Position numbers and translations under genes: made by a program. A stretch of DNA of 64,000 nucleotides. It comes from Vigna angularis. Lineage: Eukaryota; Streptophyta; Magnoliopsida; Fabales; Fabaceae. The stretch covers positions 33,883,090-33,947,089 of the forward strand of contig NC_068974.1 of assembly GCF_016808095.1 (NCBI RefSeq). Direction: 5' to 3'. The notes beneath the pieces are model-generated. The model was not told the origin of the DNA, ran no database searches, and saw nothing but the letters and a program-made list of their open reading frames with translations. This document shows, one piece after another, positions 5,276 to 58,853 of the stretch. The first letter of the stretch is position 1. Each line of letters starts with the position of its first letter.

Positions 5276-5421
5276 CATCATATTATGACTAAATGTACTA
5301 TCTGTAAATAATATAAATAATAAATAAAGTCTTAACAGAATCGATGTAATGTTACAGGACAATATTATACAAGCTAAAATAATCAGACAGTGTATATGTG
5401 AAGTCTAATGAGACGAATCAA
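5276..5421. other. AT-rich host sequence between two LTR insertions
   Basis: This belongs to the same AT-rich repeat family as 29.40, 42.93 and 56.06 kb. Those loci read 'gacgaatcaatactta' without interruption, showing the empty site of the retrotransposon that begins at 5422. The last five bases, atcaa (5417-5421), are its left target-site duplication. Confidence 0.7.
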
Positions 5422-8160
5422 TGTAAGGACCTCATTTTAAGTGATAAGGACACCCACTCCTTGGCCGTGACATTATTCACTCACTTTGCAATCAAGGAGT
5501 CACGGGCCAACTCTTCTTCACGTGAAAAGAAACACTCTTTATGGCTCCACCCACTGTTGCCTTCTATTTAAAATTGTTTACCTCTTCTCCAGAAAAGAAA
5601 AGTGGCGTGTGTGGTGTCTTCTCCATCTAACAAAGACGGCAGTTTCCTCTTGGTCTTGTGTCTCCCTCCAGAAAGTGAATTTCCAGTGTCTCAATAATCA
5701 AACACGCATGCTACCTTCATCTCTTCTTGGCTGTAGGAAGGTTGTGCATGGGGAAGAATGTTCACAGCCAAGAGAAGAGGTGCAGCAGCCACCTTTAGAG
5801 GAGAAAACGTTCCAGCAACAAGCTGGAAGTCTCACGGCCCTGGTCCAGCTGAGTTGGAAGAAGAAACACACGGCCATGGCAGCAGAGAGAGCAGCGGAGG
5901 GAAGGAACTCTTCTCCTGTTTCCAGCCGTCCAAAGAACACCCGAGGGAAGCAATTCAAATTTTACAAGAGGTGAGAGGAAGGCTAGGAGGAAGCAACAAT
6001 CAGAAAGAGAGAGGGAGAAAGAAAAAAGAGAAAAATGGAGCCAGAGGAGAAGGAGAATTCCACTGGAGAAGGATCGGAACATATGGGAGAGGATCAAGTT
6101 CTTGATGGAAGTCTTCAAGAGGTAAGGGGAGCTAGATCTTTTGTTTAGTTGATGATATATGTTATATTTGATGCAAATCTGGGATGAATGGGATGAATAT
6201 TTGGGTTCTGGTTTCGTTTATGGGTTTCTGGAAAACTTGCAGAAATTCTGCAGAAACACCGTTCGTCCAATTTGATTTCAAATTGGACGTTCGTCCTAAA
6301 TAGCTAACGTTCGTCCAAAATGGTTGAACGTTCGTCAAGGTGAATTTGGACGTTCGTCCAATATGTTCGGTAGTCGTTGGAGAGCGTTCGTTTGTGGACG
6401 CTCGTTCAAAGTTGGTGAAGTGGAAAGTGGACGTTCGTCCCATTTGCTATGCGCGTCCGTCCTTAAATCAAAGTGTTCGACATTGAGTGATTCGTTCTGT
6501 ACGTGTGAGCGTTCGTCCGCAAAGGCTCGTCGCGCGTTCGTCCAAGTTGTAGATTATGAACGTCCATGCTTCAGCTAGCAAGTGAGCGTTCGTCCCAGTG
6601 AGCGTTCGCCAGAGAGCGTTCGCCAGTGAGCGTTCGTCCAAGTGAGCGTTCGTACAGACCACGAGCGTTCGTCCATGACTTCAACTTGTGGAGCGTTCGT
6701 CCAAATAGTGAGCGTTCGTCCGTAATTGAGTGAGCGTTCGTCCAATAGTACCCAGTGAATAGTACTCGTCCAAATAGTATTTTACAAATGTTGAATTTTA
6801 AGTTCCTTTGCTTTTGGATTTAATTGTGTGTATCAATGTTTGGAATATTATCTATGACATGAATTATGTGAATGTATGAGATATGTTGGAATTGTTGGGA
6901 TAATATGGTGGTATCTGATTTTTCCTAATTGAGGTTAAGATTCAATGTAACAGTAAGTATGTTATTTAAATATTTCGGTTGCAATTTATGAATGCATGTT
7001 CATGTAATCAAGATTGGTTGAAAGGGTATGGTTATAAGTGGTTTATGATGTACATTGTTGGTCCAAAAGAAATATCATGAGGTTTAAAATGGTCGGATTG
7101 AATCGGAAATTTAGATCTCTCGGTGAGATCAGTTGGTGTAAAGAATGAATGTGGGAAGCTTAGCCGGTTGTTCATCCTGATGTTCCGTGAGTACTCGTCC
7201 TCACGTAGAGGGGGTACGTCATGTGTGGGAACGGCAGGAGGTCCTAGTCCTAGGGTATCTGGACAGATAGGACTAACCTCGGGTGGCAGCTGATGACAGT
7301 TCCAGTTACTACATCACCCGGGTGCACGAACACCGAAGCTACACAGAGACTCAGAATTTTATTATTGAGAATTGTAAAGAATGAATGTGGGAAGCTTAGC
7401 CGGTTGTTCATCCTGATGTTCCGTGAGTACTCGTCCTCACGTAGAGGGGGTACGTCATGTGTGGGAACGGCAGGAGGTCCTAGTCCTAGGGTATCGGGAC
7501 AGATAGGACTAACCTCGGGTGGCAGCTGATGAGAGTTCCAGTTACTACATCACCCGGGTGCACGAACATCGAAGCTACACAGAATTCATTCTAGTCCGGA
7601 CGAGTTTGTCTATGAAGTAACGAGTCTGTCTATGAAGTAACAAGTCGGGGTATAAAGTAACAAGTATTGTAATGTTGGTTTACCATGTTTGGATGACTTT
7701 TGCATGTTGTATGAGTGGGTGGAATTATGGTTTAATGAATATGCTCTAATTGTTCTTTTATACGAATCTAAGTATGATAACATTGAATTTAACTGTTCTA
7801 TCTGTATAACATGTTTTTATATCTAGCTCACCCTTGCATTGTTTTGTTATGTGCTGTTTGGGTATGTTTCGTTGGCGATGATCATCCACTTGGATGGGAG
7901 CAGATGTTGTCGTGGAGTTTCCCTTGGAGCCATAGCTGGAGGTTGTTGATATTGCGGAGTAATCTTCTTAGAATTTCTTGATTAAACACTTGTAGTGTTT
8001 AATCCTTTCAACTGTTTAAGTTTAAATTTTAAGTTCCTTTTATTTCTGGATGACTGTAATACCACATTTAATTACACGTCAAAATTCTGACTGTTCTCTA
8101 TATTTGAATGTTAACGTCCTTATTATATAATATTGATTATTATATAATCGGGATGTTACA
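5422..8160 (+). repeat. 5' LTR of the WOX-bearing retrotransposon (family B)
   Basis: The LTR starts TGTAAGGACC and ends GGGATGTTACA, 2739 bp, exactly as long as the 3' LTR. It contains a splice-donor-like GTAAGGGGAGCTAG at 6122, a CpG-rich 'gcgttcgtcc' array (about 6258-6760), an internal tandem duplication of about 236 bp (7138-7373, then from 7374) and the conserved hairpin at 7883-7896. The open frames inside it recur identically in the 3' LTR and match no protein I know, so I do not call genes from them. Confidence 0.93.
6258..6760 (+). repeat. CpG-rich 'gagcgttcgtcc' subrepeats in the LTR
   Basis: More than twenty imperfect copies of a 10-14-bp motif (gagcgttcgtcc, gcgttcgcca, gaacgttcgtcc) are packed into about 500 bp, in places spaced by only a few bases ('agtgagcgttcgtcc'). 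The same block recurs in the 3' LTR at 12417-12919. It occupies the same slot, between the leader donor and the conserved modules, as unrelated CpG-rich blocks in other LTR families here. Confidence 0.85.
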
Positions 8161-8164
8161 TTAA

Positions 8165-8176
8165 TGGTATCAGAGC
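8165..8176 (+). promoter_or_regulatory. Primer-binding site complementary to initiator tRNA-Met
   Basis: TGGTATCAGAGC lies four bases after the 5' LTR end. This is the standard plant LTR-retrotransposon primer site pairing with the 3' end of initiator methionine tRNA, and it fixes the element's orientation as plus. Confidence 0.95.
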
Positions 8177-8301
8177 AGTTCTTCCTTAGAAACCTGTAGG
8201 TTGTGGATGCGCTTCGTTTGTGATTGTGTACTTTGGTCTCGGGTTGGAAGTTGTATTGGTTTGTGTCAGGCTAATGGTCTTTCTTTCTGTATGAACAGAA
8301 G

Positions 8302-8845
8302 ATGGTACCTACTTCTTCTCCTCCTTCGTCCCAGGGAGTTGATCCGTCTGACTCTAATCAGATGTTGAATGCGGTGTTCCAAGCGTTGCAAGAACAGAAT
8401 GCTGCATTGGTGGAGTAAAATACCATAACCCTGCACAATCAAGAAGCCGCAAGGGTATTTGCCAAGAACGCGAGAGTAACATCTGAGAACACTCAAAGAC
8501 AATCCATTAAAGTGATTGACTAGTGGCTGAACCGTTCAGAGTGTTTTCTCTTCTGTTATTTTGGTCCAAGAGTGGAACTTGGAAAGCCTTCTGCAACACC
8601 ATCCAGTCTGGTTTGATGGGAAGTGCAGTCCGAATGAAGCTGATCAGTGGTTAAGGGACATTGAGAGAAATTATAGTGCTAAGAGATGTCCAGATGAGAA
8701 AGGGCTAGCATATGCTGAGTACTTGCCTTACAGTGTAAGGTATGACCTGGAGATTGAATTCCTTCAGTTAATACCGGGTAATACGTCGTGACTGAGTATG
8801 CGGGCAGGTTCGAGCACTTGCTCTGATTGAACACCATGACTACGG

Positions 8846-8850
<5 letters not shown>
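8302..8850 (+). pseudogene. Degenerate gag fragment of the retrotransposon
   Basis: An ATG at 8302 opens a gag-like frame (MVPTSSPPSSQG...), which ends at a TAA after about 38 codons where the sequence still reads as gag. The same frame continues to a TAG near 8521. A shifted frame from 8561 gives the retrotransposon-gag-like stretch WFDGKCSPNEADQWLRDIE, typical of Ty3/gypsy capsid N-termini. The homology stops at the long A-tract at 8850. With stops, a frameshift and no nucleocapsid zinc knuckle or pol, this cannot give a working capsid. Mobilisation would need proteins supplied in trans. Confidence 0.8.

Positions 8851-8892
<42 letters not shown>
8850..8892 (+). repeat. 43-bp A-tract at the left junction of the captured segment
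   Basis: An uninterrupted run of A separates gag sequence ('tacggttat') from the foreign segment ('tttgttatc'). A second A-tract at 11241-11260 marks the other junction with similar context ('tcggttgat' A20 'tttagtatg'). The matched pair suggests homopolymer microhomology during capture. Confidence 0.8.
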
Positions 8893-8896
<4 letters not shown>

Positions 8897-9809
8897 TTAT
8901 CATTATGAGTTTAATTCTCCCTATCTTAACCTTGATGCGCCATGTTTTGGTCTTTTGCTCGTGTTTAAGCCTAAACACTGTTTAAACCGTTTTTGTCGTC
9001 AAGTTAATGCTTTAATCCTGTCGTGTTCAACCTTAAACATTCATTCATTTCATTAACATGTATCATTTTTGGGTTATCAACCTCTATGTGTCTAAACCAG
9101 ATTTCGGCTCCCGTTCAGGTTGTGTCAAACGTATGTATTCTGTGTTTTCAAAGTTCATTAATACTTTGTTATTTTTGCCTTAATGTGAAATCCTATTGGT
9201 TATTTTTGAGTCTGCAAACACAAAGGTTGTTTTAAGATTGGGGTAAATTCATGTTCTGTTTACCTTATCGAGTATTGAAGTATCGTTAAAATTTTGATAA
9301 ATTTTTAGACATAATTTTCACGCGTTTCAAACTCATTGATAACTTATTATGTTCTTCTTTTGGGCCAAATAAAAATAAAAATAGTTGAGAATAACTCTGA
9401 GTCAAATTTCAAAATTTCGTAATAAATTAATTTATCTAAATTTGTGAACAAGTACATATATATATATATTTCAAATAAATACAATAAAGATTTCAAACAG
9501 GTGGTTGTGTTTCTGTGAGGTTTTTCTCTTCTGATACTCTTGAGTTTGGAAAGACGTTAACCTGTAAATAAATCGTTAGAAAAAATATATAACTGGCATG
9601 GCAGATAATAAAAATAATCATCAAACTAGCATGGCAGATAAATATTACAATGCATAATTAAAATAAATATGTTCTAGAGTCGATCATAAGTGATCGTTAA
9701 ATATTACAGTCCATAAAATACGCAGATAAGGTAAATAAACAAAAAGCAAATAAAGGATGTTCGGGAATCGATCACTCGTGATCATTAAGTTACAGATAAA
9801 AATAAAAAT
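8893..9809. other. Captured flanking or 3'-untranslated region of the WOX-like gene
   Basis: This lies downstream of the stop codon on the minus strand. It is AT-rich with no convincing coding frame. It holds two short palindrome-like motifs, 'gatcactcgtgatc' (near 9769-9782) and 'gatcataagtgatc' (near 9681-9694), and two copies of 'agcatggcagata'/'ggcatggcagata' (near 9594-9640). It plausibly carries the gene's 3' UTR and terminator, but I cannot place a polyadenylation site with confidence. Confidence 0.5.
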
Positions 9810-10356
9810 TTAACGAAAATATTCTCGAGCTGGTTGTGGTGGCCTAAGGGAGAGCTCCGTCGAGGGAGCTCTGATTCGGAATGCGAGAGGCATGGGTTGA
9901 GGGATTTGTCGTTCGTCCCTGTCATCGTCGATGATGATAGGAACAGGGAACAAATCCAGCAGCCTTGGCGCCTTCATAATCACCCAGCCATATTCTTCAA
10001 ACAAAAATTTGTGTTAATAATAGAAGGGGAAGAATAAAATAAAGTAAATGAAAATAAAAATAGTGGTAATTAGGGTTCTTACCATACATATACAGCGGCA
10101 GCTGAGAAAATACGGTGCCAGTGGGATCTAATTCCGCTTGCCAGCGCCTAACCCGGTTACCGTGATTGTTGAACCAGCAGTGTACATTATATTCACTGAC
10201 TTCTCCGAAGGCCCTGAGTCGAGATGTAATCTCGACGACTTGGGCTCTGCTGGGATGTGTGACCCCGTGGTTGAAGATATTGGTCATCATTTTAACCTGG
10301 TCATCAGTAGGTTTCCACCGCTGACTGGTGTACCTCTCCATCTCCATATCACTCAT
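9810..10356 (-). CDS. WUSCHEL-related (WOX-type) homeodomain protein captured in an LTR retrotransposon
   Basis: Two coding exons on the minus strand: 10356-10083 and 9994-9810, joined by an 88-bp intron with GTAAGA donor (at 10082) and TTTGAAG acceptor (ending 9995). A 5'-UTR acceptor (TTATGCTTTAG) ends at 10375. The frame stays open across the junction for 152 residues. Residues about 11-75 form a WOX homeodomain: QRWKPTDDQ at the start, P35, EITSRLRAFG (42-51) before helix 3, and NVHCWFNNH (57-65), which corresponds to NVFYWFQNH of WUS-clade proteins. The invariant W61, F62 and N64 are kept, while the following HKAR becomes HGNR. Residues 103-110, LLDLFPVP, resemble the WUS box (TLxLFPxx), and residues 136-142, STELSLR, resemble an EAR repressor motif. 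A nuclear DNA-binding repressor is inferred. It is short for the family and lies antisense to the element. An undecayed relic is the alternative. Confidence 0.85.
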
Positions 10357-10374
10357 CTTCTTCTCAGAGTATTT

Positions 10375-10976
10375 CTAAAGCATAAGGAAATAATAAAATA
10401 AAATAAAAAGAGCAAAATCAGAACAAAAATATTCTGTGTTTTCTTTATTTGTTTTGTTCTCTTTTAGGTTCTTTTGTCCAGTCAATCATTGTTGTTTCAG
10501 TGTCCAGTCTCTGATCTGTTTCACGGTCCTCGCAAAGGTTCCTAAACGGATCTATGTCAATTTGTTCATGTTCGGTTCATACAAATAAATTCCTCTTTTT
10601 AAGTTTTCTGTTTTTATGGGGTACGTGGCGTTGTTCTACCCGATTGTCTCTGCCATACCCTCAATCGAGGGGAGATTAACGTCTGGTTTCCAGCCGATAT
10701 ACCCCTTATCTTAGTTAATGCAGTGTGTTCTTAGTTTTTGTTAATAAAAGGAAAATAGAAGAAGAAGAAAGTAAATGCAGGAGCAAAAGCGAAATAACAA
10801 AACGGAAAATAAAGAAGAAAGCAGAATAAAATTGCGGGAAATAAAAGCTCAGAAAAGAAAAAGAAAAGTACATGAAAGGAAGCAGAAAGAAGAAAGGGAA
10901 GAAAAGAAGCGAGAAGTAAAGAAAGAGGAGAAGCTGGGTAAAGGAAAGGAAGAGATAAGAGAAGAGAAATACTTAC
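10375..10976 (-). other. Predicted 5'-UTR intron of the captured WOX-like gene
   Basis: On the minus strand a GTAAGT donor begins at 10976, right after 'cctcga', and an acceptor ending TTATGCTTTAG lies at 10375, 18 bases before the start codon. The intervening DNA is pyrimidine-rich on this strand near the donor (10750-10960) and has no ATG-led coding frame of interest. The lysine/glutamate-rich plus-strand frame at 10775-11239 is the complement of this polypyrimidine DNA and is not a gene. Confidence 0.6.
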
Positions 10977-11140
10977 TCGAGGCGGAGCAGAGCCTTGGAA
11001 CTTGCAGATTTGAAACTTGCCGGGAGACTCTCCGATCTACCACACTCAGTCGTTCAGATCTCACAAAGTTTTCACACTCAGAACTCTCAGTGCTCAGATC
11101 GCTCTCTCAGATGCTCTCAGATCTCAACGTTTCGAAGTGT
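10977..11140 (-). other. Predicted non-coding first exon of the captured WOX-like gene
   Basis: It runs from the expected transcription start about 25-30 bases below the TATA box (near 11140) to the GTAAGT donor at 10976. It is rich in 'gatctgaga'/'ctctgag' repeats such as 'gatctgagagcatctgagagagcgatctgag', typical of a 5' leader rather than of coding DNA. Confidence 0.5.
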
Positions 11141-11163
11141 CGCCCAACGCGGCTAGCACCTCG

Positions 11164-11220
11164 TTTTATAGCCAAGGAAACGTCACTGTGCTCACAGTTC
11201 CGGTCATGCATAACCGGAAC
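11164..11220 (-). promoter_or_regulatory. Core promoter of the captured WOX-like gene, with two dyads
   Basis: The minus strand carries TATAAAA at 11170-11164. Just upstream are two perfect inverted repeats: ACTGTG-AG-CACAGT (11185-11198) and GTTCCGGT, 8 bases, ACCGGAAC (11197-11220), the latter enclosing an RY-like ATGCAT. A TGACG (bZIP-type) motif lies between the dyads and the TATA box. Only about 70 bp of foreign DNA lies upstream of the TATA box before the A-tract at 11241, so distal control elements, if any, would come from the retrotransposon. Confidence 0.6.
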
Positions 11221-11260
11221 CTTCAATAGTATCGGTTGATAAAAAAAAAAAAAAAAAAAA

Positions 11261-11580
11261 TTTAGTATGCGGATTTTGCCACATTTTCGGAGTATGAAGC
11301 ATTCATTTAGAGAGGATCTTTTGCTATGTGAGTAAGTGTGACCTGATTTTGGTGTGAGTTATGTGATGTGCATGATGATCCAAAATTATCTCCTCGTATG
11401 AGTGGTTGAAGTTATCCTGATAAGCTCTTTGAGTGGTGGGAACTGCCTGGATAAGTTTATTATACGAGTTGTTGGGGGCAACTCTACCTAAGAATTTGAG
11501 GACGAGATGAGAGAGATGTATCTCAACTTGTTTTGGAAAGCTTAATTTTCGAGGACGAAAATTTTTGCTGTTGGGGAGAA
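11261..11580 (+). pseudogene. Residual pol 3' end and polypurine tract of the retrotransposon
   Basis: This short remnant lies between the right junction A-tract and the 3' LTR. It includes 'gaatttgaggacgagatgagag' and 'cgaggacgaaaattttt', phrases found just upstream of 3' LTRs in plant chromoviruses, and ends in the polypurine tract GGGGAGAA (11573-11580). No integrase or chromodomain frame survives. Confidence 0.65.
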
Positions 11581-14319
11581 TGTAAGGACCTCATTTTAAG
11601 TGATAAGGACACCCACTCCTTGGCCGTGACATTATTCACTCACTTTGCAATCAAGGAGTCACGGGCCAACTCTTCTTCACGTGAAAAGAAACACTCTTTA
11701 TGGCTCCACCCACTGTTGCCTTCTATTTAAAATTGTTTACCTCTTCTCCAGAAAAGAAAAGTGGCGTGTGTGGTGTCTTCTCCATCTAACAAAGACGGCA
11801 GTTTCCTCTTGGTCTTGTGTCTCCCTCCAGAAAGTGAATTTCCAGTGTCTCAATAATCAAACACGCATGCTACCTTCATCTCTTCTTGGCTGTAGGAAGG
11901 TTGTGCATGGGGAAGAATGTTCACAGCCAAGAGAAGAGGTGCAGCAGCCACCTTTAGAGGAGAAAACGTTCCAGCAACAAGCTGGAAGTCTCACGGCCCT
12001 GGTCCAGCTGAGTTGGAAGAAGAAACACACGGCCATGGCAGCAGAGAGAGCAGCGGAGGGAAGGAACTCTTCTCCTGTTTCCAGCCGTCCAAAGAACACC
12101 CGAGGGAAGCAATTCAAATTTTACAAGAGGTGAGAGGAAGGCTAGGAGGAAGCAACAATCAGAAAGAGAGAGGGAGAAAGAAAAAAGAGAAAAATGGAGC
12201 CAGAGGAGAAGGAGAATTCCACTGGAGAAGGATCGGAACATATGGGAGAGGATCAAGTTCTTGATGGAAGTCTTCAAGAGGTAAGGGGAGCTAGATCTTT
12301 TGTTTAGTTGATGATATATGTTATATTTGATGCAAATCTGGGATGAATGGGATGAATATTTGGGTTCTGGTTTCGTTTATGGGTTTCTGGAAAACTTGCA
12401 GAAATTCTGCAGAAACACCGTTCGTCCAATTTGATTTCAAATTGGACGTTCGTCCTAAATAGCTAACGTTCGTCCAAAATGGTTGAACGTTCGTCAAGGT
12501 GAATTTGGACGTTCGTCCAATATGTTCGGTAGTCGTTGGAGAGCGTTCGTTTGTGGACGCTCGTTCAAAGTTGGTGAAGTGGAAAGTGGACGTTCGTCCC
12601 ATTTGCTATGCGCGTCCGTCCTTAAATCAAAGTGTTCGACATTGAGTGATTCGTTCTGTACGTGTGAGCGTTCGTCCGCAAAGGCTCGTCGCGCGTTCGT
12701 CCAAGTTGTAGATTATGAACGTCCGTGCTTCAGCTAGCAAGTGAGCGTTCGTCCCAGTGAGCGTTCGCCAGAGAGCGTTCGCCAGTGAGCGTTCGTCCAA
12801 GTGAGCGTTCGTACAGACCACGAGCGTTCGTCCATGACTTCAACTTGTGGAGCGTTCGTCCAAATAGTGAGCGTTCGTCCGTAATTGAGTGAGCGTTCGT
12901 CCAATAGTACCCAGTGAATAGTACTCGTCCAAATAGTATTTTACAAATGTTGAATTTTAAGTTCCTTTGCTTTTGGATTTAATTGTGTGTATCAATGTTT
13001 GGAATATTATCTATGACATGAATTATGTGAATGTATGAGATATGTTGGAATTGTTGGGATAATATGGTGGTATCTGATTTTTCCTAATTGAGGTTAAGAT
13101 TCAATGTAACAGTAAGTATGTTATTTAAATATTTCGGTTGCAATTTATGAATGCATGTTCATGTAATCAAGATTGGTTGAAAGGGTATGGTTATAAGTGG
13201 TTTATGATGTACATTGTTGGTCCAAAAGAAATATCATGAGGTTTAAAATGGTCGGATTGAATCGGAAATTTAGATCTCTCGGTGAGATCAGTTGGTGTAA
13301 AGAATGAATGTGGGAAGCTTAGCCGGTTGTTCATCCTGATGTTCCGTGAGTACTCGTCCTCACGTAGAGGGGGTACGTCATGTGTGGGAACGGCAGGAGG
13401 TCCTAGTCCTAGGGTATCTGGACAGATAGGACTAACCTCGGGTGGCAGCTGATGACAGTTCCAGTTACTACATCACCCGGGTGCACGAACACCGAAGCTA
13501 CACAGAGACTCAGAATTTTATTATTGAGAATTGTAAAGAATGAATGTGGGAAGCTTAGCCGGTTGTTCATCCTGATGTTCCGTGAGTACTCGTCCTCACG
13601 TAGAGGGGGTACGTCATGTGTGGGAACGGCAGGAGGTCCTAGTCCTAGGGTATCGGGACAGATAGGACTAACCTCGGGTGGCAGCTGATGAGAGTTCCAG
13701 TTACTACATCACCCGGGTGCACGAACATCGAAGCTACACAGAATTCATTCTAGTCCGGACGAGTTTGTCTATGAAGTAACGAGTCTGTCTATGAAGTAAC
13801 AAGTCGGGGTATAAAGTAACAAGTATTGTAATGTTGGTTTACCATGTTTGGATGACTTTTGCATGTTGTATGAGTGGGTGGAATTATGGTTTAATGAATA
13901 TGCTCTAATTGTTCTTTTATACGAATCTAAGTATGATAACATTGAATTTAACTGTTCTATCTGTATAACATGTTTTTATATCTAGCTCACCCTTGCATTG
14001 TTTTGTTATGTGCTGTTTGGGTATGTTTCGTTGGCGATGATCATCCACTTGGATGGGAGCAGATGTTGTCGTGGAGTTTCCCTTGGAGCCATAGCTGGAG
14101 GTTGTTGATATTGCGGAGTAATCTTCTTAGAATTTCTTGATTAAACACTTGTAGTGTTTAATCCTTTCAACTGTTTAAGTTTAAATTTTAAGTTCCTTTT
14201 ATTTCTGGATGACTGTAATACCACATTTAATTACACGTCAAAATTCTGACTGTTCTCTATATTTGAATGTTAACGTCCTTATTATATAATATTGATTATT
14301 ATATAATCGGGATGTTACA
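11581..14319 (+). repeat. 3' LTR of the WOX-bearing retrotransposon (family B)
   Basis: A 2739-bp copy of the 5' LTR at a constant offset of 6159 bp. The only difference I found by eye is G at 12725 where the 5' LTR has A at 6566. It ends GGGATGTTACA, followed by the target-site duplication atcaa (14320-14324). It carries the CpG array (12417-12919), the 236-bp internal duplication (13297 onward) and the hairpin (14042-14055). Confidence 0.93.
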
Positions 14320-14324
14320 ATCAA

Positions 14325-33785: not shown

Positions 33786-35315
33786 TGTAACATCTCATTT
33801 TAATAGTATAAAACTACTAAAGTAAAACATTACAAAGATGATAATAGAACAACTAAATAAATCAAACCTACCACAAAAGCCAGAGATCTACTCTAACAAC
33901 TCATCTCCTTCATTCTCACCTCTTGCTGGAATAATTGAAAAGACGTCTCCCTAATCTTACACCATTTAGATGATCATTATAAAAGAGAAAAATAACACAC
34001 GGACAGACAACACAAATGCAAGGGTAAGCTAGTGATATAACAGTTCATCATAGTAAAATAAAATTCTATCATATATTATATTGCACACCAAATAAAACAT
34101 TCATCCTAATCATATTACAAACTTAGACTTGACTTATCCGAATAGAGTATGAATGTCAAGCAATGACGATTCGTGCACTTGTAGTGGTGAAACAATTGGC
34201 CTACCTCGAGCTACAACGCAAGGTAAAGTCCGTAGAGTTGGACCTCGTGCTATTCTCACCACTTGCCTTACCCATCTCTATGTGAGAATGGATGACCATT
34301 TAGAGTGTCAAAATGAACCCAAAGGTTGAGCTTACTACATTCATACTTACAACAACACAGAACACCACCATGTAACCTTTCCACGAGGGTCAATGATATA
34401 CGTCCATCAACCATTCACTTAATCAACAACATACTTATCACCATCATCACATATAGACCCACATAATCATATACATATATTTCACATAAACATGGTAACT
34501 AATCACATGAAACCATTCCATATACATCAATTCACAAGAACCAGTCCAAGAAAAACCACTAAACAACACAAAAACCCTTTTAAAATCATACAACAAGAAG
34601 TAGCGCTCAACCCTAAAAAGTAGCGTGCAATGCTACAACCATTGGAAAGTGGTGCTCAGATCCAACAACACTAGAAACTGGTGCTCAAGCGCCATGACAG
34701 AGGCGTTTAGCGCCATATCGGAACTTGAAACTCTATTTCTATAACTTTGGGCATTTCCTATACCACTTCAATTGATCCCTAATACACTCTTGACACTAAG
34801 AAACCTCAAAAAACAACACTCTAACTCAAAATGACCACTTCAAACCAAATCAACTTCCCTCAACTACCCAAATTCATTTCTACTCTTTCTAACAACATTT
34901 CAATAAACCAAAGGTACAATCAAGTAATAAATGACTCTATGACAGACCCAAAATCATCATTTTTACCTTAGACCTTCCAATTTGAAATCTCACTAGTCAA
35001 AACTAGTTCCAAACCAAGCTAAGCTCCACCTATAAACCACCAAACACTATTGCATCAGATTTCACTCATTCCAACATCAAAACCAGTTCTAGATGATCAA
35101 ATAACCAACCTTAAACTTCTGATTTTCCCTCCTAACCCTTATATAAAAAATTCACATGTTAAGACTCCCTAATTTGAACTTAAAACATTTTAAAACCATC
35201 ACATTGACTCATACCAATTTCCCTATCAGATTTTCACCAACTCAAGGTGCTAACAAATCACAATTAACATGTAACCAAACATTAAACATCAAATTTCTCA
35301 ATCCACACCCTATCA
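33786..35315 (-). mobile_element. Solo LTR family F, copy in unit 3 (left part)
   Basis: It starts TGTAACATCTCATTTTAATAG and follows 45714 and 58854 through the 'atggatgaccat...gtgagaat' module (34130-34340) and 'gtagcgctcaaccc' subrepeats (34600-34720). It is cut at 35315 ('ccacaccctatc'), where copia gag sequence begins. The same LTR resumes at 37680, but about 120 bp before the point where it broke off, so part of the LTR is present on both sides. Confidence 0.7.
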
Positions 35316-35962
35316 TCGGGTTCCCTCTTTTTCTTTTTCGTCCTCAATTCGTGGGCTTTTAATGACCCAGCTAACTCCTCCACAGTGAGAATTGACAAAT
35401 CCTTTGTCTGTTCAATAGTGACCACGATACTTTCAAAATCATCTGTCAAATTTCTCAGGATCTTTTTCGCAACCCGGTTAGGAGGAACCTCTTCTCCGTT
35501 CATTCCTAGTTGATTGGCCATCTTCTGCACTCGAGTTATAAACTCGACAACTCCCTCATTTTCATCCATCTCCATATGTTCAAACTCTCTTTTGAGAGCT
35601 TGTACTCGAACCTGCTTCACGCGGGTATCTCCTTTGTATGCCACCTTCAGAATTTCCCATGCTTCTTTTGCTGACTTTGCATTAGCTATTTTCTCGAATC
35701 CAGATTCATCCATTGCATTATACAGAAAGTACAAAGTCGATCTGTCTTTCACTCGTGTCTTTTTCAATGCAGCAATCTGGTTCTCTGTCTGATGCTCATC
35801 ATCTGCGGGTTCATTGTACCTGTCCTCCACTACGTCCCATACATCTTGGGATCCAAGAAGAACCTTCATCTGCAAAGACCAATTGTCGTAATTGGTATTT
35901 TCCGATAATTGTGGCACACTCATCCCATTGAATACCTTTGTCATCTCTCTCAAAAAAATCAA
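35316..35962 (-). pseudogene. Ty1/copia gag (UBN2-type) fragment, 3' truncated
   Basis: A minus-strand frame of about 215 residues has the hallmark copia gag start: SVPQLSENTNYDNWS, then MKVLLGSQDVWDVVED, TLYFLYNAMDES, AKEAWEILKVAYKGD and KRKFE/KREFEHM-type helices ending LTVEELAGSLKAHE. These match the gag_pre/UBN2 capsid of legume copia elements. The initiator is probably the M at the SVPQL start or one just upstream. The frame is undamaged until 35316, where the element is cut off. The zinc knuckle, protease, integrase and reverse transcriptase are all missing. It lies just downstream of its own 5' LTR and primer site. Confidence 0.85.
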
Positions 35963-41512: not shown

Positions 41513-44500
41513 GGAACAAAATAACAACCAATTTTAGAATTATATTAATGATATCAATTAGGATGAATGTGATTTGCACTCCTTTAAGGATGGATTTTGA
41601 AACTTATTAATGAATTGTTGAGGTTCATGTCTTAAATAAATAATTCAAATACAGAAGTAAAAAAAAATCATTTTTTAAAATGATTTTTCGTTTAGTAAGA
41701 TCTTAAAATGAATGTGACATGGACTTAAAAAAATTAAGTTAGGAAATTATATTATAAATATTAAAATGATTTAATATATACTAGTGAAAACCTATGTAAT
41801 AGATACATTTATGTTTACTTTTTTTTAAATAATAAAAGATAATAAAATTGTTTTGTTATTATTATTATAAATATAAAATTTAATATAAATAATTTCTGTA
41901 ATTGTTTTGTAAATAATTTTTATGGATATACTGTGTGCGTGCATGCAGGCGTGCGTCCGTGCGATGAAAAATTTAAATTAAGATATATAATGATTTAAAA
42001 AATATATAAAAGTATTCATTAAATAATAATAATAATTAAAAAGGTTAAATACAATATAATTACTGATTAAATTAATAATAATTACAATATTAATGACTAA
42101 AGAAATAAATTAAAAAATATATTAATAGTAATTATAATATTAATATTTGAAGAAAAATGTTAAAATAAAATATAATTATTGATTAAAATGACAAAATTAG
42201 TAAAGATAGTTATATTAATAATTAAAAGTGAATATAATTAAAAGTGAATAAATTAAAAGTTAATATATTACAATATTAATGACTAAAGAAATAAATTAAA
42301 AAATATTAATTGTAATAATAAAATTAATATTTGAAGAAAAATGTTAAAATAAAATATAATTATTGAATAAAATTACAAAATTAGAAAATATAGTTATATT
42401 AAGAATGAAAAGTGAATATAATTAAAATTTAATAAATTAAAAGTGAATATAATAGTAATTACAATATTAATGACTAAAGAAATAAATTAAAAAAATATTA
42501 ATTGTAATAATAACATTAATAATTAAAGAAAAATATTAATATTTATACATTTTGCATTGTCTAATATTTATAGTTTAATAGTTTATTCTTTACATTTTTT
42601 ACATGATCTATCGTTTGTAAGTTTACATTATCTACTATTTTGTATTTTGTTTATCCTTTTATTCTTAAAGATTTTACTCTTTATATTGTTTTTCATATTC
42701 CTATAATTCAAATTGAAAGGATAATGCTTCATGTCTTAAAATGTATTTTAAAATGAATCTATAATAAATAATAATAATAAAATAGTTCATAACAAATATA
42801 AATAATCGTAAAATAATTTATAATAAATAATAATAAATATATAAATATAAAAAATAATAAAATATATGTGAAACCATATATATGAAACCAGATAATACAA
42901 GTTAAAATCACAAAATGAACCCAATTAGACGAATCAATACTTACACTAATAAAATGATACAAGTTTAAATGATTTCAACTATCAATACAAATTTATCATA
43001 TTGATTAGTAAAATAATGTTGAATTTTCCACTTATTAATTAAATGATATAGTAAAATGAATTTATTAAAGGATTGATATAGTAGAACAAATATAAACAAA
43101 CTATAAACGTGTATGTTAATTTATTAATATACATAAGAGGAGTATCATATTATAAATATGTTCATACATATATTAAACAAGTTTGTCCAACATGTATTTC
43201 CAATCATATCAATAAGTACAAAATTGCAAATAATCATTAATCTACATTTTTTTCATAATTTATCTTTTATGTTTTTAAATTGTCTACTCTTTATACTCTG
43301 ATGTATAGTCTAACATTTATTTTTTTTTTTTTGTGAATCATCTAGCTTTTGTATTTTTACTGTCTACTATGTACTCCGTTTGTTGATAGTCTACTATGTA
43401 CTCCTTTTGTATTTTTTTACACTTTTATACATATATAGTCTATCATTTGTAGTTTTAGATTTTTATACTCTTAACATTTTTGTACACAGTCTAACTTTAA
43501 AATTTTTATTAAATTTATTCAACATTTTGTACATCATATATCTTTTTTTATTATTAAATAATTTACTCTTTATATTTTTGTGCATCATTTAGTATGTATT
43601 TAATTTAAATTCTTTATTTTGATTAACTTGATCATAATATATTATTTAAAATAATTATATAAAATATATTTTTTATTAAAACTATATATAACTAAATATA
43701 TTCACATTATAAAAAATAATTAAAATATTATTATTTATAAAATTAAATATTTATATTAAATTATAATTTTATTTCTATAAACTCAAATTAATAAAATAAA
43801 TAATTACGTCGGGTCAAGTAAAAGACTATATCTAAAAAAAGCTCAAACTTTTTTTAATATTATTAATTTTCTATTAAATTAATTATAACACTATGTTTAA
43901 AAAAAGTCTTAATTTTTTTAATACTAATACAGCTCCATTAAATTAATTATAAAATTATGTTTTAAAAAAAGGTCTTAAATTTTTTTTCAATATTAATAAA
44001 TTTCAATTTAATTAATTATAATATATGTTTGAGAATAATATTTAATTAAATTATTATAATTGCTTTTTACTTTTTATTGGTTTTAAAATTATATTAAATG
44101 AGATAAAACTTTTTTTTCATAAATTATAATTTGGTTTAGAAAAATTTATGTGTAAGAAAACTTTGAATATTTCTTAGGCATGATATGATATGACATTTTA
44201 TTTGCTGTTATTAAGAACGTATTATCAAAAGATAAAAATATATGCACATTGATGAAGCTAACTAAGAGGTTTTCTTTCATTTTTTGAAAAATATAGAAAA
44301 ATGGATTTGAAAATGCAATCATTTCTGTGAAAGAAATTGCTTTTGAAATGGATAGTGACTCTAAATTTAGTTAATATATATATTTGTCACAAAAAAAAAC
44401 AATTTAATAAAAGTGTTGATAATTAAATTGTAAAATCACTTCCAGAATAATTTAGAATTGATCATGTAGATAATTTAATCACGACACTTCAAAGTAGATT

Positions 44501-44518
44501 CAAATAATTTAAAATATA

Positions 44519-44565
<47 letters not shown>
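41513..44565. repeat. AT-rich unit sequence, no gene
   Basis: It contains a G/C-shifted 'gtgtgcgtgcatgcaggcgtgcgtccgtgcg' run (41930-41965), repeated 'aaaatgttaaaataaaatataattattga' blocks (42020-42530), the degenerate minisatellite (42545-43600), and an (AT)n run (44523-44565). It is collinear with 55.5-57.7 kb. No coding signal is seen. Confidence 0.7.
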
Positions 44566-44569
<4 letters not shown>

Positions 44570-45698
44570 TTTATAATACGTCATTAGGTTTGGTAGGTTT
44601 GTTCAAAGTAGCTTTATATTTTTTCAGATGTTCACAGTTGTTTCATGTTTTGTAAAAACGATTCAAGTTGGTCACTTTTACTTACAGCGTTAAAACCTAA
44701 AGGCAAAATGTCCACCTTAGCCAATAATAAATGACATGTACAGTTATGTGACAACTGATCAAATCGACGTGGCAATTGAGTACAATTTTTTGAGTCCAAG
44801 CACACTATTCTGTAGAGCCCCAGTCTAGGGTAGATTCCATCTTCATGGTACCTTGGGCATCAACAACAGCATATTTGCAGTGACGCAAAGACTTGGTTCT
44901 CTGGCGGCTCTGTGGCGACGAGGGTCTCAGTTCTGCAGCGTCTTCTCGCGATTCACAGGGTTGAGTCGTGAAGAGGATGATCTTGATGATTGCAGCGTTT
45001 TGGGGTTTTCTTTTCTTGTGTTTTAGATCTTGCAAATTATATACATTTCAGATTAAAGGATTGATTTCGTATTTTGGGGTTCTTTTTTTTGTTTATGAAT
45101 TGGGTCTCCTTTTTTCGGGTTGGTTTTGTGTTTTGGGTTTTGGTGTTCACGATCTTAGAATTTGGGATTTTGTATTCTTGCTTTCTCAATTTTCGAATTT
45201 GGGATTGGAGGTTGTTGAATTGGATTTTTGGGGTTCTTACTTTTGTGCTCTTGATTTTTATCTGCTAGTTTGATATTGCAATTTGAGGCTAGGGTTTGAA
45301 TTAGGATTCTAGATTTTCACTTGGAGGATGATGACTGAGAATTGGGGTTTTGTTTTTTTTTTCTTTTTCGTTTCTGTTCTTGGACTAAAGATGTTGATGG
45401 TGGTTGCGGTGACATTGAAGTGAGACTATACCGACATGAGGAAGAAAGAGTAAGTAAATTAATTTGGGTAAAATTCAGGAAATTATCAAGTCAATTGACC
45501 TCAGCGTGCCATGTAATCAATAATTTGACAACTCATTTAGTTTTGGTCAGGAAGGCAATTACACCGTTAGCGTTTTTAACACTTTTAGTAAAAAGAACCA
45601 ACTTGAACCGTTTTTACAAAATATGGGATAATTGTGAACATTTGAAAAAAGAGAGAACCACTTTGAACAAACCTAGGGATCAAAATAGGTATTAAACC
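44566..45698. mobile_element. Long-TIR (Mutator-like) non-autonomous element, copy 1
   Basis: The right end 'aaaataggtattaaacc' and about 140 bp before it are the inverted complement of the left end (44574-44690): both arms carry 'gtttgttcaaagt', 'tcagatgttcacagtt'/'tcaaatgttcacaatt' and 'ttttgtaaaaacg.ttcaagttgg'. The GGTTTAATAC..TTTTGGTCC type of terminus is a common legume long-TIR family. The interior (44800-45450) has gene-like GC content, 'gggttttcttttcttgtgttttag' and 'gaggaagaaagagtaag', and may be captured sequence. No family was recognised. The same element, in the same place, is at 57706-58838. Confidence 0.65.
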
Positions 45699-45713
45699 AA
45701 TTTTTTTATTTAG

Positions 45714-47798
45714 TATAACATCTCATTTTAATAGTATAAAACTACTGAAGTAAAACATTACAAGGATGATAATAGAACAACTAGATGAAACAAACCTACC
45801 ACAAAAGCCAAATATCCACATCTTGTAGAACCATCTAACAACTCATCTGCTTGACCCTCACCTCTCGCCGGAATAACTAAAAGATGTCTCCCTAAGCTCA
45901 CACCATTTAGATAATCATTGCAAAAGAGAAAAACAACACATGGACAAACAACACAAATGCAAGGATAACCTAGTGATAAAAGAATTCATCATAGTAAAAT
46001 AAAATTCTATCATATATTATATTGCACACCAAATAAAACATCCATCCTAATCATATTATAGACATAGACTTGACTCATGTGGATATAGTATGAATGTCGA
46101 GCTATGGTGATTTGTGCACTTGTAGTGGTGAAACAATTGGCCCACCCCGAGCTACAACACAAGGTTACTTCGTTATCACTCGCCTTAGGCCAAGGTAAAG
46201 TTCCTATACTAGAACCCCTTCCTACTCTCACCACATGCCTCACCCCAAGACTGAGCTTCCTACATTCACATTTACAACAATATAGAACAACACCACATAA
46301 CCTCTTCACGAGGGTCATTGAATTACGTCCATCAACCATTCACTTAATCAACAACATATTTATCACCATCATCATATATAACCAACATAATCATATACAT
46401 ATATTTCACATAATCATGGTAAGCAATCACATGAAATCATTCCATAAACATCAATACACAAGAACCAGTCCAAGAAAAACCACTAAAGAGCACGTAAACC
46501 TTTTTAAACTCATACTAACAGAAGTAGTGCTCAGCCCCAAAAAGTAGTGCTTAGCACTACAGCCATTGGACACTGGCACTCAACCCTAGTGACACTAGAA
46601 ACTAGTGCTCAAGCGCCATAACAAAAGCGTTTAGCGCCATATCAGAACTTGAAATTCTTCTTATGGGCATTTCCTATACCACTTCAATTGAACCCTATGA
46701 CACTCTTGACACTAAGAAACCTCATAAGACAACACTCTAACTCAAAATGATCACTTCAAACTAAATCAACTTTCCTAAACTACCCAAATTCATTTATACT
46801 CTTTCTAACACCAATTTCAATCAACCAAAGGTACAAAAAAGTCATAAATGACTCTATGATGGATCCCAAATCATCATTTTTACCCGAGACCTTCCACTTT
46901 GAAATCTCACTAATAAAAACCCCTAAAACTAATTTCAAACCAAGCTAAGCTCCACGTATCAACCACCAAACACTCTTACATCAGATTTCACTCATTCCAA
47001 CTTCAAAATTAGTTCTAGATGACCAAATAACCAACCTATGTATTTGATAACTCCTCATTCCTTAAACCTTGCTACCAATTTCAGACATCAAAACGACATT
47101 ATAACATATGATTCTTGGTCAAAAAAACATCCAAATATCATGAAATCAAAATTAAATCATTAAGTAAGCAACAACATACATTGAAATGAACTACACTAGC
47201 ATACTTATTCAAATTATACTAAATCAGTTTAAGATACATATAAACACCAAACCTACACCACAAACATAATTTAAAGTAAAACATCTAGCTTCACTTACCT
47301 GACACCGAAGTCACTAAACTCTAAGAACATTGAAACCCTTACTTCCGACTCAAAGAACTCTGGAAACGCTTAAATCACCAAATCGTGATCGAAGTGAGTC
47401 CTTAGGATCATAGATTTACAAAGAATCAAGAATAGAGCTTAAAAGACACATATGAAGGGATTCTTAAGCATGATCATAAACAAAGAACAAATGGAAAAAG
47501 AGTTAGAAACTTAGTTACTCTAAACGAAGAATTGATTGGTTAGAAATGGAGATCACTCAGCTGTGATCTCATAGGAACTTCCTGATTATCAAACAGATGA
47601 TCGAGGAGTGAGATTTCTTAAAGAGAATAGATAGAAAACTAAGAGAAAAAGTTTTAGAGAGATGGTTTCTGTTTTAATTGATGAGACGAGGTTAAGAAAT
47701 TCTATTTGTATAAGCGAGTTATTTTAATTTTAAAATACTCAGTCTCATTATTTTGAAACACTTATCAGCTCTAATACTCTATTCTCTAGTTTATCACA
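45714..47798 (-). mobile_element. Solo LTR family F, intact copy in unit 4
   Basis: On the plus strand it runs TATAACATCTCATTTTAATAG (TG mutated to TA) to AGTTTATCACA, with the 5-bp duplication tttag (45709-45713 and 47799-47803). Length is 2085 bp. The copy at 58854 has the same mutated start and the same duplication, so both come from one insertion later duplicated with the unit. It includes the 'gtgctcagccccaaaaagtagtgct' subrepeats (46520-46640). No internal region is present. Confidence 0.8.
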
Positions 47799-53832: not shown

Positions 53833-55527
53833 TGTAAGACTCGTGAAAAATATTTATAATAGTAAATTTTAGCATTTTAATGGATAGAAAAAAAAATTAA
53901 ATTTTTGGATATAAAATTATAGTAATTTTAGAAGGAGAGGTTCAAATTTTTGATAACTTATTTAGGATTTTTTTGTAAAAAAAGTGAATAGTGAATAGTG
54001 AATAGTAAAAAAAAAATTTGAAAGGATAAGAATTCCTACGTAGCATGAAAGGAGTTGGGATCAGATTTGATCAAGTTGATGATTAGAATATTATTTTTAA
54101 AATAATATTAAAATAATAAATAATATTAAAAAATTAATGAATAGTAAAAAAATTTTACCTATAAATAGAGATCAGAGGAATGAAGTTTTTGCACCAAGAA
54201 GTAGAGAGAATTATGAGAAAAGAAGAAATTAGGAAGTTTTTGGAGTAGGAAGAAATTTTATAGTAGAGGTTCTGAAGAGTTTTCGGGGAAACAAATTCGG
54301 AGCAAGAGAAATCTGGAATAGAGGTAAGGGGAGCTAATCTTTCTATGCCTTATGTTAATTATTGTTTGACTATTTATGTATTGAATTATTGTGTATGTTT
54401 ATTCATGCTTAAATTTATGTATTAATATTGTTATATAAAACTATGTTGTTATTTTGAATCTGTGAATAAGAAATTTGTTAAAAACTAGTTGAGGAACACT
54501 TTGGCTAAGGAAAGACTTGGTACTTAAGTTTTCCATTGTGACGCACCTCTCTTTCCTGAAAGTCTACTCGACAAGCTTTTAACTTAAATCTTATTGAACA
54601 GATTATGTACTGTTAAACTATTGTGCAATATATCTCGTTGGAATGAATTCATGTTATTGTGGTAGATACAAAATTATGAATTTTGATTGTGATGATTGTA
54701 ATTTATTATAATAGATTTGAATTTATGCGTCTGAACATGATATGAGTATTATGGGGAGATTTCGTAATGATATAATATGAGTTAAGGAATGTGAGCATTG
54801 TATGAGTCTCGTGGAGAGATTCTGTAATGATGTGGTAATTGTGTATATATTGATGTTGAGGGTCCTGTAGTTGGAGGTTATCCTGATACTCTAATAATCA
54901 TCCAGTCTCAAGTAGAGAGGGATGAATTATGTGGTGAGAGGAGCAGGAGGTCCTGGTCTATGTGCCGGTTTTGGACATAGTGTTGAGGATTTACCTTGTG
55001 AATGGTATGGAGTATTTTGGAAGTATATTTGTAAGAAAAAGTAGAAGTCATCACAAGTGCATAACCTCCCGTGACCGCTCATCAACGTATCATCCGGATG
55101 AGTGTCTATTAGGTATTGTGGTGTTTATTGGGTATTGTGGGACGAGTGTCTAATAAGAATTGTGGTATGATGGTATGAGGGTGTATGACATAATTATTAT
55201 ATGATGTTAGTATCAAAGCAATTATGCATGTTTTATAAATGAATTGTTGCATATTAGCTCACCCTACTTGTTTGTGTTTGGGTATGTATGATGATCGTAT
55301 AATTCGTTATACAGAAGTAGATGAGGGAGTGTCGTCTTATCCAGTACAAGTGAAGATGGAGGAGGAAGGATAGTAAAGAAAAACTCGGGTTATCTTTAAG
55401 TTGAAATCTGAGTTTAAAATATGTAATTAATGTGAAATATTTTATATTTCAAAATGAATGACTGTAGAAATGTAACCGTTTTCATATTATTTATGTAATA
55501 TCAAGTGTGAGATATTGGGATGTTACA
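53833..55527 (+). mobile_element. Ty3/gypsy-type solo LTR (family E)
   Basis: It starts TGTAAGACTCG and ends TTGGGATGTTACA with the perfect duplication ttttg (53828-53832 and 55528-55532), interrupting 'tacattttgcattgtc' that is continuous at 42548. Length is 1695 bp. It shares the leader donor GTAAGGGGAGCTAA (54324), the 'atcctgat...ctcaagtagagaggga...agcaggaggtc' module (54880-54960), 'agctcaccctacttg' (55255) and a hairpin with a different stem, GTATAA-TTCG-TTATAC (55297-55312). Unlike families A-C it has no large CpG-rich array. Confidence 0.88.
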
Positions 55528-55532
55528 TTTTG

Positions 55533-57661
55533 CATTGTCTAATATTTATATTTTAATAGTTTACTCTTTACATTTTTTACATGATCTATCGTTTGTAAGT
55601 TTAAATTATCTAGTATTTACATTTTTATGCATCTTCTAGCCTTTGTATTTTTACAAAGTCTGTACACTTTTCTACAAGGTTTATCATTTGTAGCTTTAGG
55701 TTGTGTACTCTTCACATTTTTTATAATTGTCTAAGTTTTGTATTTTTATCAAGTTCATACAATATTTTGTATGTCGTTTATCCTTTTATTCTTAAAGATT
55801 TTACTCTTTATATTGTTTTTCATATTCCTATAATTCAAATTGAAAGGTCTAAATAATGCTTCATCTCTTAAAAAATGTATTTTAAAATGCATCTATAATA
55901 TATAATAATAATAAAATAGTTCATAACAAATATAAATAATCGTAAAATAATTTATAATTAATATATAAATATAAAAAATAATAAAATATATGTGAAACCA
56001 TATATATGAAATCAGATGATACACGTTAAAATCACAAAATGAAACCCAGTTAGACGAATCAATACTTACACTAATAAAATGATACAAGTTTAAATGATTT
56101 CAACTATCAATACAAATTTATCATATTGATTAGTAAAATAATGTTGAATTTCCACTTATATTAATTAAATGATATAGTAAAATGAATTTATTAAAGGATT
56201 GATATAGTAGAACAAATATAAACAAACAACAAACGTGTGTGTTAATTTATTAATATACATAAGAGGAGTATCATATTATAAATATTGTTCATATATATTA
56301 AACAAGTTTGTGCAACATGTATTTCCAATCATATCAATAAGTACAAAATTGCAAATAATCACTAATCTACATTTTTTTCATAATTTATTTTTTATGTTTT
56401 TAAATTGTCTACTCTTTATACTCTGATGTATAGTCTAAACTTTATTTTTTTTTTTTTTGTGAATCATCTAGCTTTTGTATTTTTACTGTCTACTATGTAC
56501 TCCTTTTGTTGATAGTCTACTATGTACTCCTTTTGTATTTTTTTACACTTTTATACATATATAGTCTATCATTTGTAGTTTTAGATTTTAATACTCTTAA
56601 CATTTTTGTACACAGTCTAACTTTAAAATTTTAATTAAATTTATTCAACATTTTGTACATCATATATCTTTTTTATTATTAAATAATTTACTCTTTATAT
56701 TTTTGTGCATCATATAGTATGTATTTAATTTAAATTCTTTATTTTGATTAACTTGATCATAATATTATTTAAAATAATTATATAAAAGATATTTTTTATT
56801 AAAACTATATATAACTAAAATATATTCACATTATAAAAATAATTAAAATATTATTATTTATAAAATTAAATATTTATATTAAATGATAATTATATTTCTA
56901 TAAACTCAAATTAATAAAATAAATAAATACATCCAGGTTGCCCGGGTCAAGCAAGTAAAACACTATATCTAAAAAAAATGCTCAAACTTTTTTTAATATT
57001 ATTAATTTTCTATTAAATTAATTATAAAACTATGTCTAAAAAAAGTCTTAATTTTTTTAATACTAATACATCTCCATTAAATTAATTATAAGACTATGTT
57101 TTAAAAAAAGGTCTTAAAATTTTTTTCAATACTAATAAATCTCTATTTAATTAATTATAATATTATGTTTGAAAATAATATTTAATTAAATTATTATAAT
57201 TGCTTTTTACTTTTTATTGGTATTAAAATGATATTAAATGAGATAAAACTTTTTTTTCATAAATTATAATTTGGTTTAGATAAATTTATGTGTTAGAAAA
57301 CTTTGAATTTTTCTTAGGCATGATATGATATGACATTTTATTTGCCGTTACTAAGAACTTATTATCAAAAGATAAAAAAGATATGCACATTGATGAACCT
57401 AATTAAGAGGTTTTCTTTCATGTTTTGAAAAATATTGAAAAATGGATTTGAAAATGCAATTATTTCTGTCGAAGAAATTGCTTTTGAAATGGATATTGAA
57501 TCTAAATTTAGTTAATATATATATTTGTCACAAAAAAAACAATTTGATAAAAGTGTTCATAATTAAATTGTAAAATCACTTCACGAATAATTTAGAATTG
57601 ATTATGTAGATAATTTAATCACGACACTTCAAAGTAGATTCAAATAATTTAAAATATATGA

Positions 57662-57705
<44 letters not shown>
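55533..57705. repeat. AT-rich unit sequence with degenerate minisatellite, no gene
   Basis: Collinear with 42.55-44.57 kb at high identity. Minisatellite-like array at 55530-56720 and (AT)n at 57664-57705. Confidence 0.7.
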
Positions 57706-57708
<3 letters not shown>

Positions 57709-58838: not shown

Positions 58839-58853
58839 ATTTCTTTTATTTAG

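Follow-up and report, generated by a model that had tools for sequence, protein, structure and literature searches.

An apparently non-autonomous family of LTR retrotransposons in Vigna angularis carrying an antisense WOX gene with a signature of protein-level purifying selection

Amplification of LTR-flanked WUSCHEL-related homeobox (WOX) genes is already known from two other species of the genus Vigna. According to the accessible part of a meeting report (K. Naito, PMC10714607), Vigna marina and Vigna riukiuensis harbor many WOX copies, more than 1,000 of them in V. riukiuensis, which are mostly flanked by identical LTRs with target duplications, and a WOX expansion is also mentioned for V. 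reflexo-pilosa in the accessible text of a further publication (PMC10357499). Antisense genes in the internal region of plant LTR elements are described, in the part of the article available, for Retand, Grande, and RIRE2 (PMC11963269), where predicted DNA binding and a suggested regulatory role are given for the encoded products and some of the elements are non-autonomous. Moreover, Ty3/gypsy elements of orchids that contain an m6A demethylase domain (PMC9289625, accessible part) represent a case in which a host-type domain was captured and retained through replication.

In this study, we analyzed a stretch of 64,000 nucleotides from the adzuki bean Vigna angularis (contig NC_068974.1, positions 33,883,090 to 33,947,089 of the forward strand), hereafter called the window, and related sequences of the same genome. 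As in the amplification reported for V. marina and V. riukiuensis, we found numerous WOX genes between near-identical LTRs with target-site duplications; in contrast to the accessible part of that account, orientation, gene structure, motifs, and selection were analyzed here, and in another species. The antisense gene plan, the shared junctions, the non-autonomous structure, and the selection profile were not found in the published Vigna accounts, as far as these are accessible in the open-access literature. Like Retand, Grande, and RIRE2, the adzuki element carries an antisense gene in its internal region, but their common domain TRP28, located between pol and the 3' LTR (PMC11963269, accessible part), was not detected, Pfam giving Homeodomain only; instead, it harbors a homeodomain gene with introns and a promoter-like region of its own, and no pol. 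Compared to the orchid elements, which are large, possess gag-pol, and carry an enzyme domain active in vitro (PMC9289625, accessible part), the cargo is an antisense transcription factor and not an enzyme.

The element at window positions 5422-14319 displays the hallmarks of an LTR retrotransposon, namely a TG..CA LTR pair, a target-site duplication, a primer binding site, and a polypurine tract. Between its A-tracts lies a small complete gene on the minus strand (11240-8893). The features are as follows:

5417..5421, no strand: left target-site duplication ATCAA, an exact 5-bp repeat abutting the LTR end TG
5422..14319: LTR element, whole
5422..8160, plus strand: 5' LTR, 2739 bp, TG...CA, with a single mismatch to the 3' LTR
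8165..8176, plus strand: primer binding site TGGTATCAGAGC, located by sequence and, from its motif, presumably of the initiator-Met tRNA type
8302..8848, plus strand: remnant which we take to be gag-like, with stops in all three frames
8850..8892, plus strand: A-tract at the left insertion junction, the same junction being present in 24 of the 30 copies L001-L030
8893..9809, minus strand: 3' flank of the WOX gene within the insert
9810..9994, minus strand: second coding exon, encoding LLDLFP (WUS-box-like), TELSLR (EAR-like), and the stop
9995..10082, minus strand: coding intron, 88 bp, phase 1, GT-AG as in 40 of 40 copies
10083..10356, minus strand: coding exon 1 with the homeodomain, ATG at 10356
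10375..10976, minus strand: 5'UTR intron, 602 bp, GT-AG as in 40 of 40 copies
10977..11139, minus strand: non-coding exon, its 5' limit deduced from the TATA box
11140..11240, minus strand: promoter with TATA at 11164-11170 and dyads at 11186-11197 and 11200-11217
11241..11260, plus strand: A-tract at the right insertion junction, present in 27 of the 30 copies L001-L030
11571..11580, plus strand: polypurine tract TTGGGGAGAA, located by sequence ahead of the 3' LTR
11581..14319, plus strand: 3' LTR, pairing with the 5' LTR
14320..14324, no strand: right target-site duplication ATCAA, exact repeat

Over 2,739 bp, the two LTRs differ at a single position (A at 6566, G at 12725), and the element is very young; at a substitution rate commonly used for plants (1.3e-8 per site and year), one mismatch corresponds to a very rough figure of about 14,000 years. 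The 3.4 kb between the LTRs consist of the broken gag-like leader and the WOX segment, and neither the list of frames nor the available space revealed a sense frame of pol size between the window LTRs. Judging from this, the element does not seem to possess the own gag and pol of an autonomous LTR retrotransposon. Two pieces of the gag-like remnant gave no Pfam match at the cut-off. A 236-bp tandem duplication is furthermore present in each LTR, together with arrayed short repeats of the CGTTCGTCC type (7137-7583 and 13296-13742). Elsewhere in the window, several direct repeats with 94-97% identity lie about 13.1-13.2 kb apart (42000-47000 and 55000-60000), suggesting a large duplicated element or segment; an inverted repeat with 258-nt arms, 98% complementary and 26 nt apart, is located at 60607-61148, and a 226-aa frame on the minus strand (35282-35962) looks to us like a copia-type gag.

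The initial annotation had placed a WOX-type gene on the minus strand of a young, mobile LTR element, with a promoter, a non-coding exon, a 5'UTR intron, a GT-AG coding intron, and 152 residues. The gene model agrees with this plan, the A-tracts bound the insert exactly where it had been placed, and a Pfam homeodomain, the single LTR mismatch, and the many copies bear out the remainder. Both dyads, read from the sequence, lie upstream of the TATA box, the one at 11200-11217 with one mismatched pair. Among 22 sequences, the mean pairwise p was 0.061 for the promoter, 0.149 for the 5'UTR exon, 0.080 for the 5'UTR intron, and 0.047-0.048 for the 3' flank; since the 3' flank is at least as alike as the promoter, constraint on the latter is only suggested. 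A non-coding block near the left junction (8893-9117) showed conservation similar to that of the coding exons (mean p 0.05) and is perhaps a cis-acting signal. The WUS site TGAATGAA was not enriched in the window, with 6 occurrences against 7.0 expected.

The deduced protein revealed a significant match to the Pfam Homeodomain (PF00046, E 4.3e-7, 30.1 bits at a cut-off of 22.9), its sole Pfam domain, so that the homeodomain match on which the initial annotation depended was obtained. The nearest solved chains by sequence were WUSCHEL (6ry3, 1.5e-12) and STENOFOLIA (6wig, 4.1e-12), using a 153-aa version with one extra residue at the splice. An AlphaFold model of the homeodomain exon displayed three helices (mean pLDDT 78.8), and in a fold search of the PDB with this model the first 11 matches were all WUS-HD or STENOFOLIA; thus, Pfam together with the top matches by sequence and fold identifies the domain as a homeodomain of the WOX type. 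With WUSCHEL and STENOFOLIA, the window protein shares the homeodomain fold, most base-reading residues, and WUS-box-like and EAR-like motifs; it differs from them in its length of 152 aa, in a recognition helix reading CWFNNHGNR and not YWFQNHKAR, and in being multicopy and mobile. The WUS-box consensus is TLxLFP, and the motif of the window protein is RLLDLFP, in which the first T is missing, subfamily III (see below) having TLDLFP. Similarly, the EAR consensus is LxLxL, while the EAR-like motif of subfamily I, to which the window gene belongs, is LSLRP; LSLRL occurs in six of nine subfamily II/III proteins.

For WUS, base reading by R38, N90, R94, and, less clearly, Q89, backbone contacts by K82, N83, and Y86, and a bearing of T35, S36, and R94 on the preference for TGAA over TAAT have been described (PMC7203112, accessible part). 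In our alignment, T35, S36, R38, N83, N90, and R94 are kept (T35, S36, R38, N90, and R94 corresponding to T10, S11, R13, N64, and R68 of the window protein), and K82, Y86, Q89, K92, and A93 are changed. The changes at K82, Y86, K92, and A93 are common to subfamilies II and III, and Q89 is replaced by N in subfamily I only. Since the backbone residues K82, Y86, and K92 and the base-reading Q89 are replaced, weak DNA binding is possible. HGNR was found in nearly all subfamily I members and in the majority of those of subfamily II, and subfamily III has YGYR. Replacement of HKAR by HGNR had been suggested to reflect either changed DNA contacts or early decay. Since HGNR is widely shared in subfamilies I and II and the codons are under purifying selection, early decay is not supported; HGNR rather seems to be an old, retained change, which fits a WUS relative with altered or weaker binding.

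A scan of the host genome with the coding segment resulted in 510 first-look candidates, the best 40 of which were scored. We read 30 copies with 1.5-kb flanks (L001-L030) and 19 with 9.95 kb, nine of them overlapping, leading to 40 distinct copies. All 40 have a polypurine-side piece of the element next to the WOX gene, in the same orientation. Of the 19 long loci, 14 displayed a direct LTR pair spanning the gene (95.4-100% identical, about 3.1-4.0 kb between the LTRs), with LTR patches oriented relative to the gene as in the window, though the LTRs of other loci resemble the window LTR in patches only. In the remaining five, no direct LTR pair was in view: in L031, L034, and L045, LTR sequences on one side match in the opposite orientation, and in L044 and L048 an LTR was seen on the polypurine side only. 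Among the 14 loci with paired LTRs, target duplications could be assessed in seven by a search that tolerated shifts, revealing three exact 5-bp duplications, two with one mismatch, and two poor ones. The gag leader was matched in ten of the 19 long loci, always in the same orientation, and nine gave no match. Thus, the young element of the initial annotation stands, but its lone capture does not, as the cargo is common to a family; based on frame sizes and the space between the LTRs, which leaves no room for pol, this family appears to be non-autonomous.

Among L001-L030, the insertion junctions lie at the same place on the left in 24, on the right in 27, and on both sides in 22 copies, with A-tracts varying in length between copies, and the boundary between gag remnant and WOX segment coincides in 24 of the 30. 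Since both junctions are common to 22 of the 30, a single insertion event is the simplest reading. A search with the gag leader revealed 32 full-length copies with at least 91% identity among the best 40 of 386 candidates, and a WOX match lies 1.55-2.0 kb away from at least 25 of these 32, among 57 places compared. A break at 687-688 shared by all 32 matches was discarded as support, since the query itself ended there; therefore, the common break point of gag and WOX rests on the junction readings of the copies. The next gag relatives among the best 40 of 386 are 76-82% identical over parts, and no autonomous partner was found among them. The same-genome search proposed in the initial annotation thus yielded other elements with the same cargo, but not the parental host gene. 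For host WOX-type homeodomains, the best 150 of 613 candidates included 11 places that were 53% or more identical to a Rehmannia WOX; most of the remaining places had 30-44%, and two short matches had 59-60%. Distances calculated separately for gag, 3' flank, coding part, intron, and polypurine side among 22 sequences (8302-11560) were poorly correlated (Spearman -0.02 to 0.43), and L002, for example, is 1.3% apart from the window in the coding part and 27.6% on the polypurine side. These discordant distances suggest that the copies are mosaics; some high gag distances (L011, L020, L025) look like misalignment and may add to this signal.

The frame of 459 bp is intact, without indel or stop, in 38 of the 40 distinct copies, L023 and L030 being broken; since these 40 are the best matches of 510 candidates, this is not a genome-wide rate. 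The initial annotation had considered that every copy might carry different frame-breaking changes, which is not so, and had proposed to compare dN/dS between copies. This comparison resulted in dN 0.0376, dS 0.1442, and a dN/dS of 0.26 over 703 pairs. Grouped by divergence, the ratio was 0.90 at dS below 0.02 (16 pairs), 0.29-0.37 at dS 0.02-0.15, and 0.22 at dS 0.15-0.30, a profile typical of a gene that is required while its lineage is active and no longer used once a copy has landed. Across the protein, the ratio was 0.33 for the homeodomain and 0.36 for the rest, with the lowest pN/pS at codons 100-110 (WUS-box-like, 0.069) and codons 135-143 (EAR-like, 0.026). The WUS-box-like and EAR-like motifs named in the initial annotation comprise the most constrained codons, which would fit a predicted repressor. 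Counting over 19 disjoint nearest pairs, not strictly independent of each other, gave 94 synonymous against 73 non-synonymous changes, with 77.5% non-synonymous expected under neutrality (p about 5e-21).

As controls, the other forward frames of the same DNA gave 1.71 and 0.92, and the reverse-strand frames 1.01, 0.35 (0.352), and 1.34; treating the 5'UTR intron as codons resulted in 0.94, 0.63, and 0.82. The low reverse-strand value is expected where third positions line up. In a neutral simulation, 35% of the frames were stop-free at 5.7% divergence. A protein-level neutrality test with 27 proteins, weaker than the DNA test, pointed in the same direction, with a mean BLOSUM62 of -0.105 against -0.463 +/- 0.120 and 63 invariant sites against 50.6 +/- 3.7 (highest simulated 63). 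Based on the frame controls, a chance open frame was rejected, as were constraint at the RNA or DNA level alone by the intron pseudo-frames (0.63-0.94) and passive decay by dN/dS between the sampled copies. Since the insertion junctions are common to 22 of 30 copies, the purifying selection is dated after capture. Altogether, this pattern of mutations suggests maintenance of a functional protein during the multiplication of the elements.

Protein searches also revealed more distant relatives. With the window protein, 63 clusters were obtained, all named V. angularis, and no sequence named V. riukiuensis or V. marina was returned by the WOX protein searches. Two further subfamilies, II and III, at about 45-50% identity, also include proteins of V. 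radiata and V. umbellata, and the homeodomain, WUS-box-like, and EAR-like motifs are kept in most full-length members of all three subfamilies. Subfamily II copies form groups of three with spacings of about 23-31 kb (C2:32.95-33.00 Mb and C3:29.99-30.04 Mb of G000), suggesting segmental duplication. Subfamily III occupies about 40 places in the genome, with stop codons in the matched frame in 12 of the best 42 rows. At its copy L050 (C4:5289850-5292450), the coding intron has the same position as in the window gene, and no part of an LTR element was recognised in the one 2.6-kb stretch read; an unrelated gene-like reading frame lies nearby, and a perfect 18-bp palindrome directly follows the WOX stop.

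We therefore regard it as likely that the window contains one copy of a non-autonomous Vigna LTR family whose one recognisable intact gene, an antisense accessory WOX gene, is selectively kept. That the gene is instead passive cargo, a host gene taken up by chance, multiplying with the element and decaying, would agree with the A-tract junctions and the broken gag usual in defective elements, with the two broken copies among 40, and with the ratio of about 0.9 in the 16 youngest pairs. The latter is, however, the behavior of single insertions after landing, and ratios of 0.22-0.37 at all higher divergences and of 0.03-0.07 in the two repression motifs, 38 intact frames, and constraint specific to the real frame among forward frames make this the least probable of the explanations considered. 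Nearly as improbable is constraint left over from host evolution before many independent captures: segments diverge discordantly, so exchange is likely, and the genome also contains subfamilies II and III, but the 20 intact copies with both junctions in common still gave a dN/dS of 0.294, and the introns have diverged too.

Selection could also act for the plant, if some copies were useful host genes, e.g., in stress or coastal adaptation, and fed the family. The WOX amplification in the coastal species V. marina and V. riukiuensis (PMC10714607), the closely spaced subfamily II sets, and L050 of subfamily III without a recognised LTR-element part point this way, but the accessible text of the same report gives the contribution to coastal adaptation as unknown. 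Moreover, because all 40 subfamily I copies examined have a piece of the element next to the gene, no element-free host copy was seen among them, and we consider a benefit for the plant unlikely.

Judged by comparison of the copies, the family is thus non-autonomous, with an antisense WOX gene under purifying selection at the protein level since its insertion. Such elements would move in trans by enzymes of an autonomous element. The TATA promoter of the WOX gene would drive a transcript running opposite to that of the LTR, and this antisense transcript would be spliced; the 152-aa product may enter the nucleus and bind WUS-type (TGAA-like) sites. Tails with WUS-box and EAR-like motifs recruit TOPLESS-type co-repressors, and the product would probably repress in this way. 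Candidate targets are the element itself or host genes of meristem cells or germ-line precursors. Copies retaining the gene would have to have been favored by the product. For a product acting in trans and encoded by a non-autonomous element, such selection is difficult to account for unless product and encoding copy are somehow linked; our preferred guess is a cell-level advantage in meristem or germ-line precursors. According to the accessible part of a 2020 study (PMC7560203), insertions must be avoided in shoot stem cells that yield germ cells. A rather unlikely extension is that the WUSCHEL mimic serves as a selfish weapon, its altered recognition helix and repression tail acting in shoot stem cells, the germ-line precursors: WUS-type sites would be occupied and the WUS/WOX program of the stem cells bent, whereby silencing or exclusion of mobile elements would be eased and new insertions inherited.

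For genome annotation, this means that adzuki entries named "WUSCHEL-related homeobox" can belong to transposons rather than being regulators of the host. P0037, annotated as WOX2, matches the window gene to 100% over 55% and then follows another frame of the last exon. The WOX expansion in V. reflexo-pilosa, as given in the accessible part of PMC10357499, perhaps also consists of transposon genes. With a developmental transcription factor as the one gene maintained in a defective mobile element, the family offers an unusual opportunity to ask what benefit plant retrotransposons derive from genes they capture, and 38 intact copies with measurable selection make this question directly testable.
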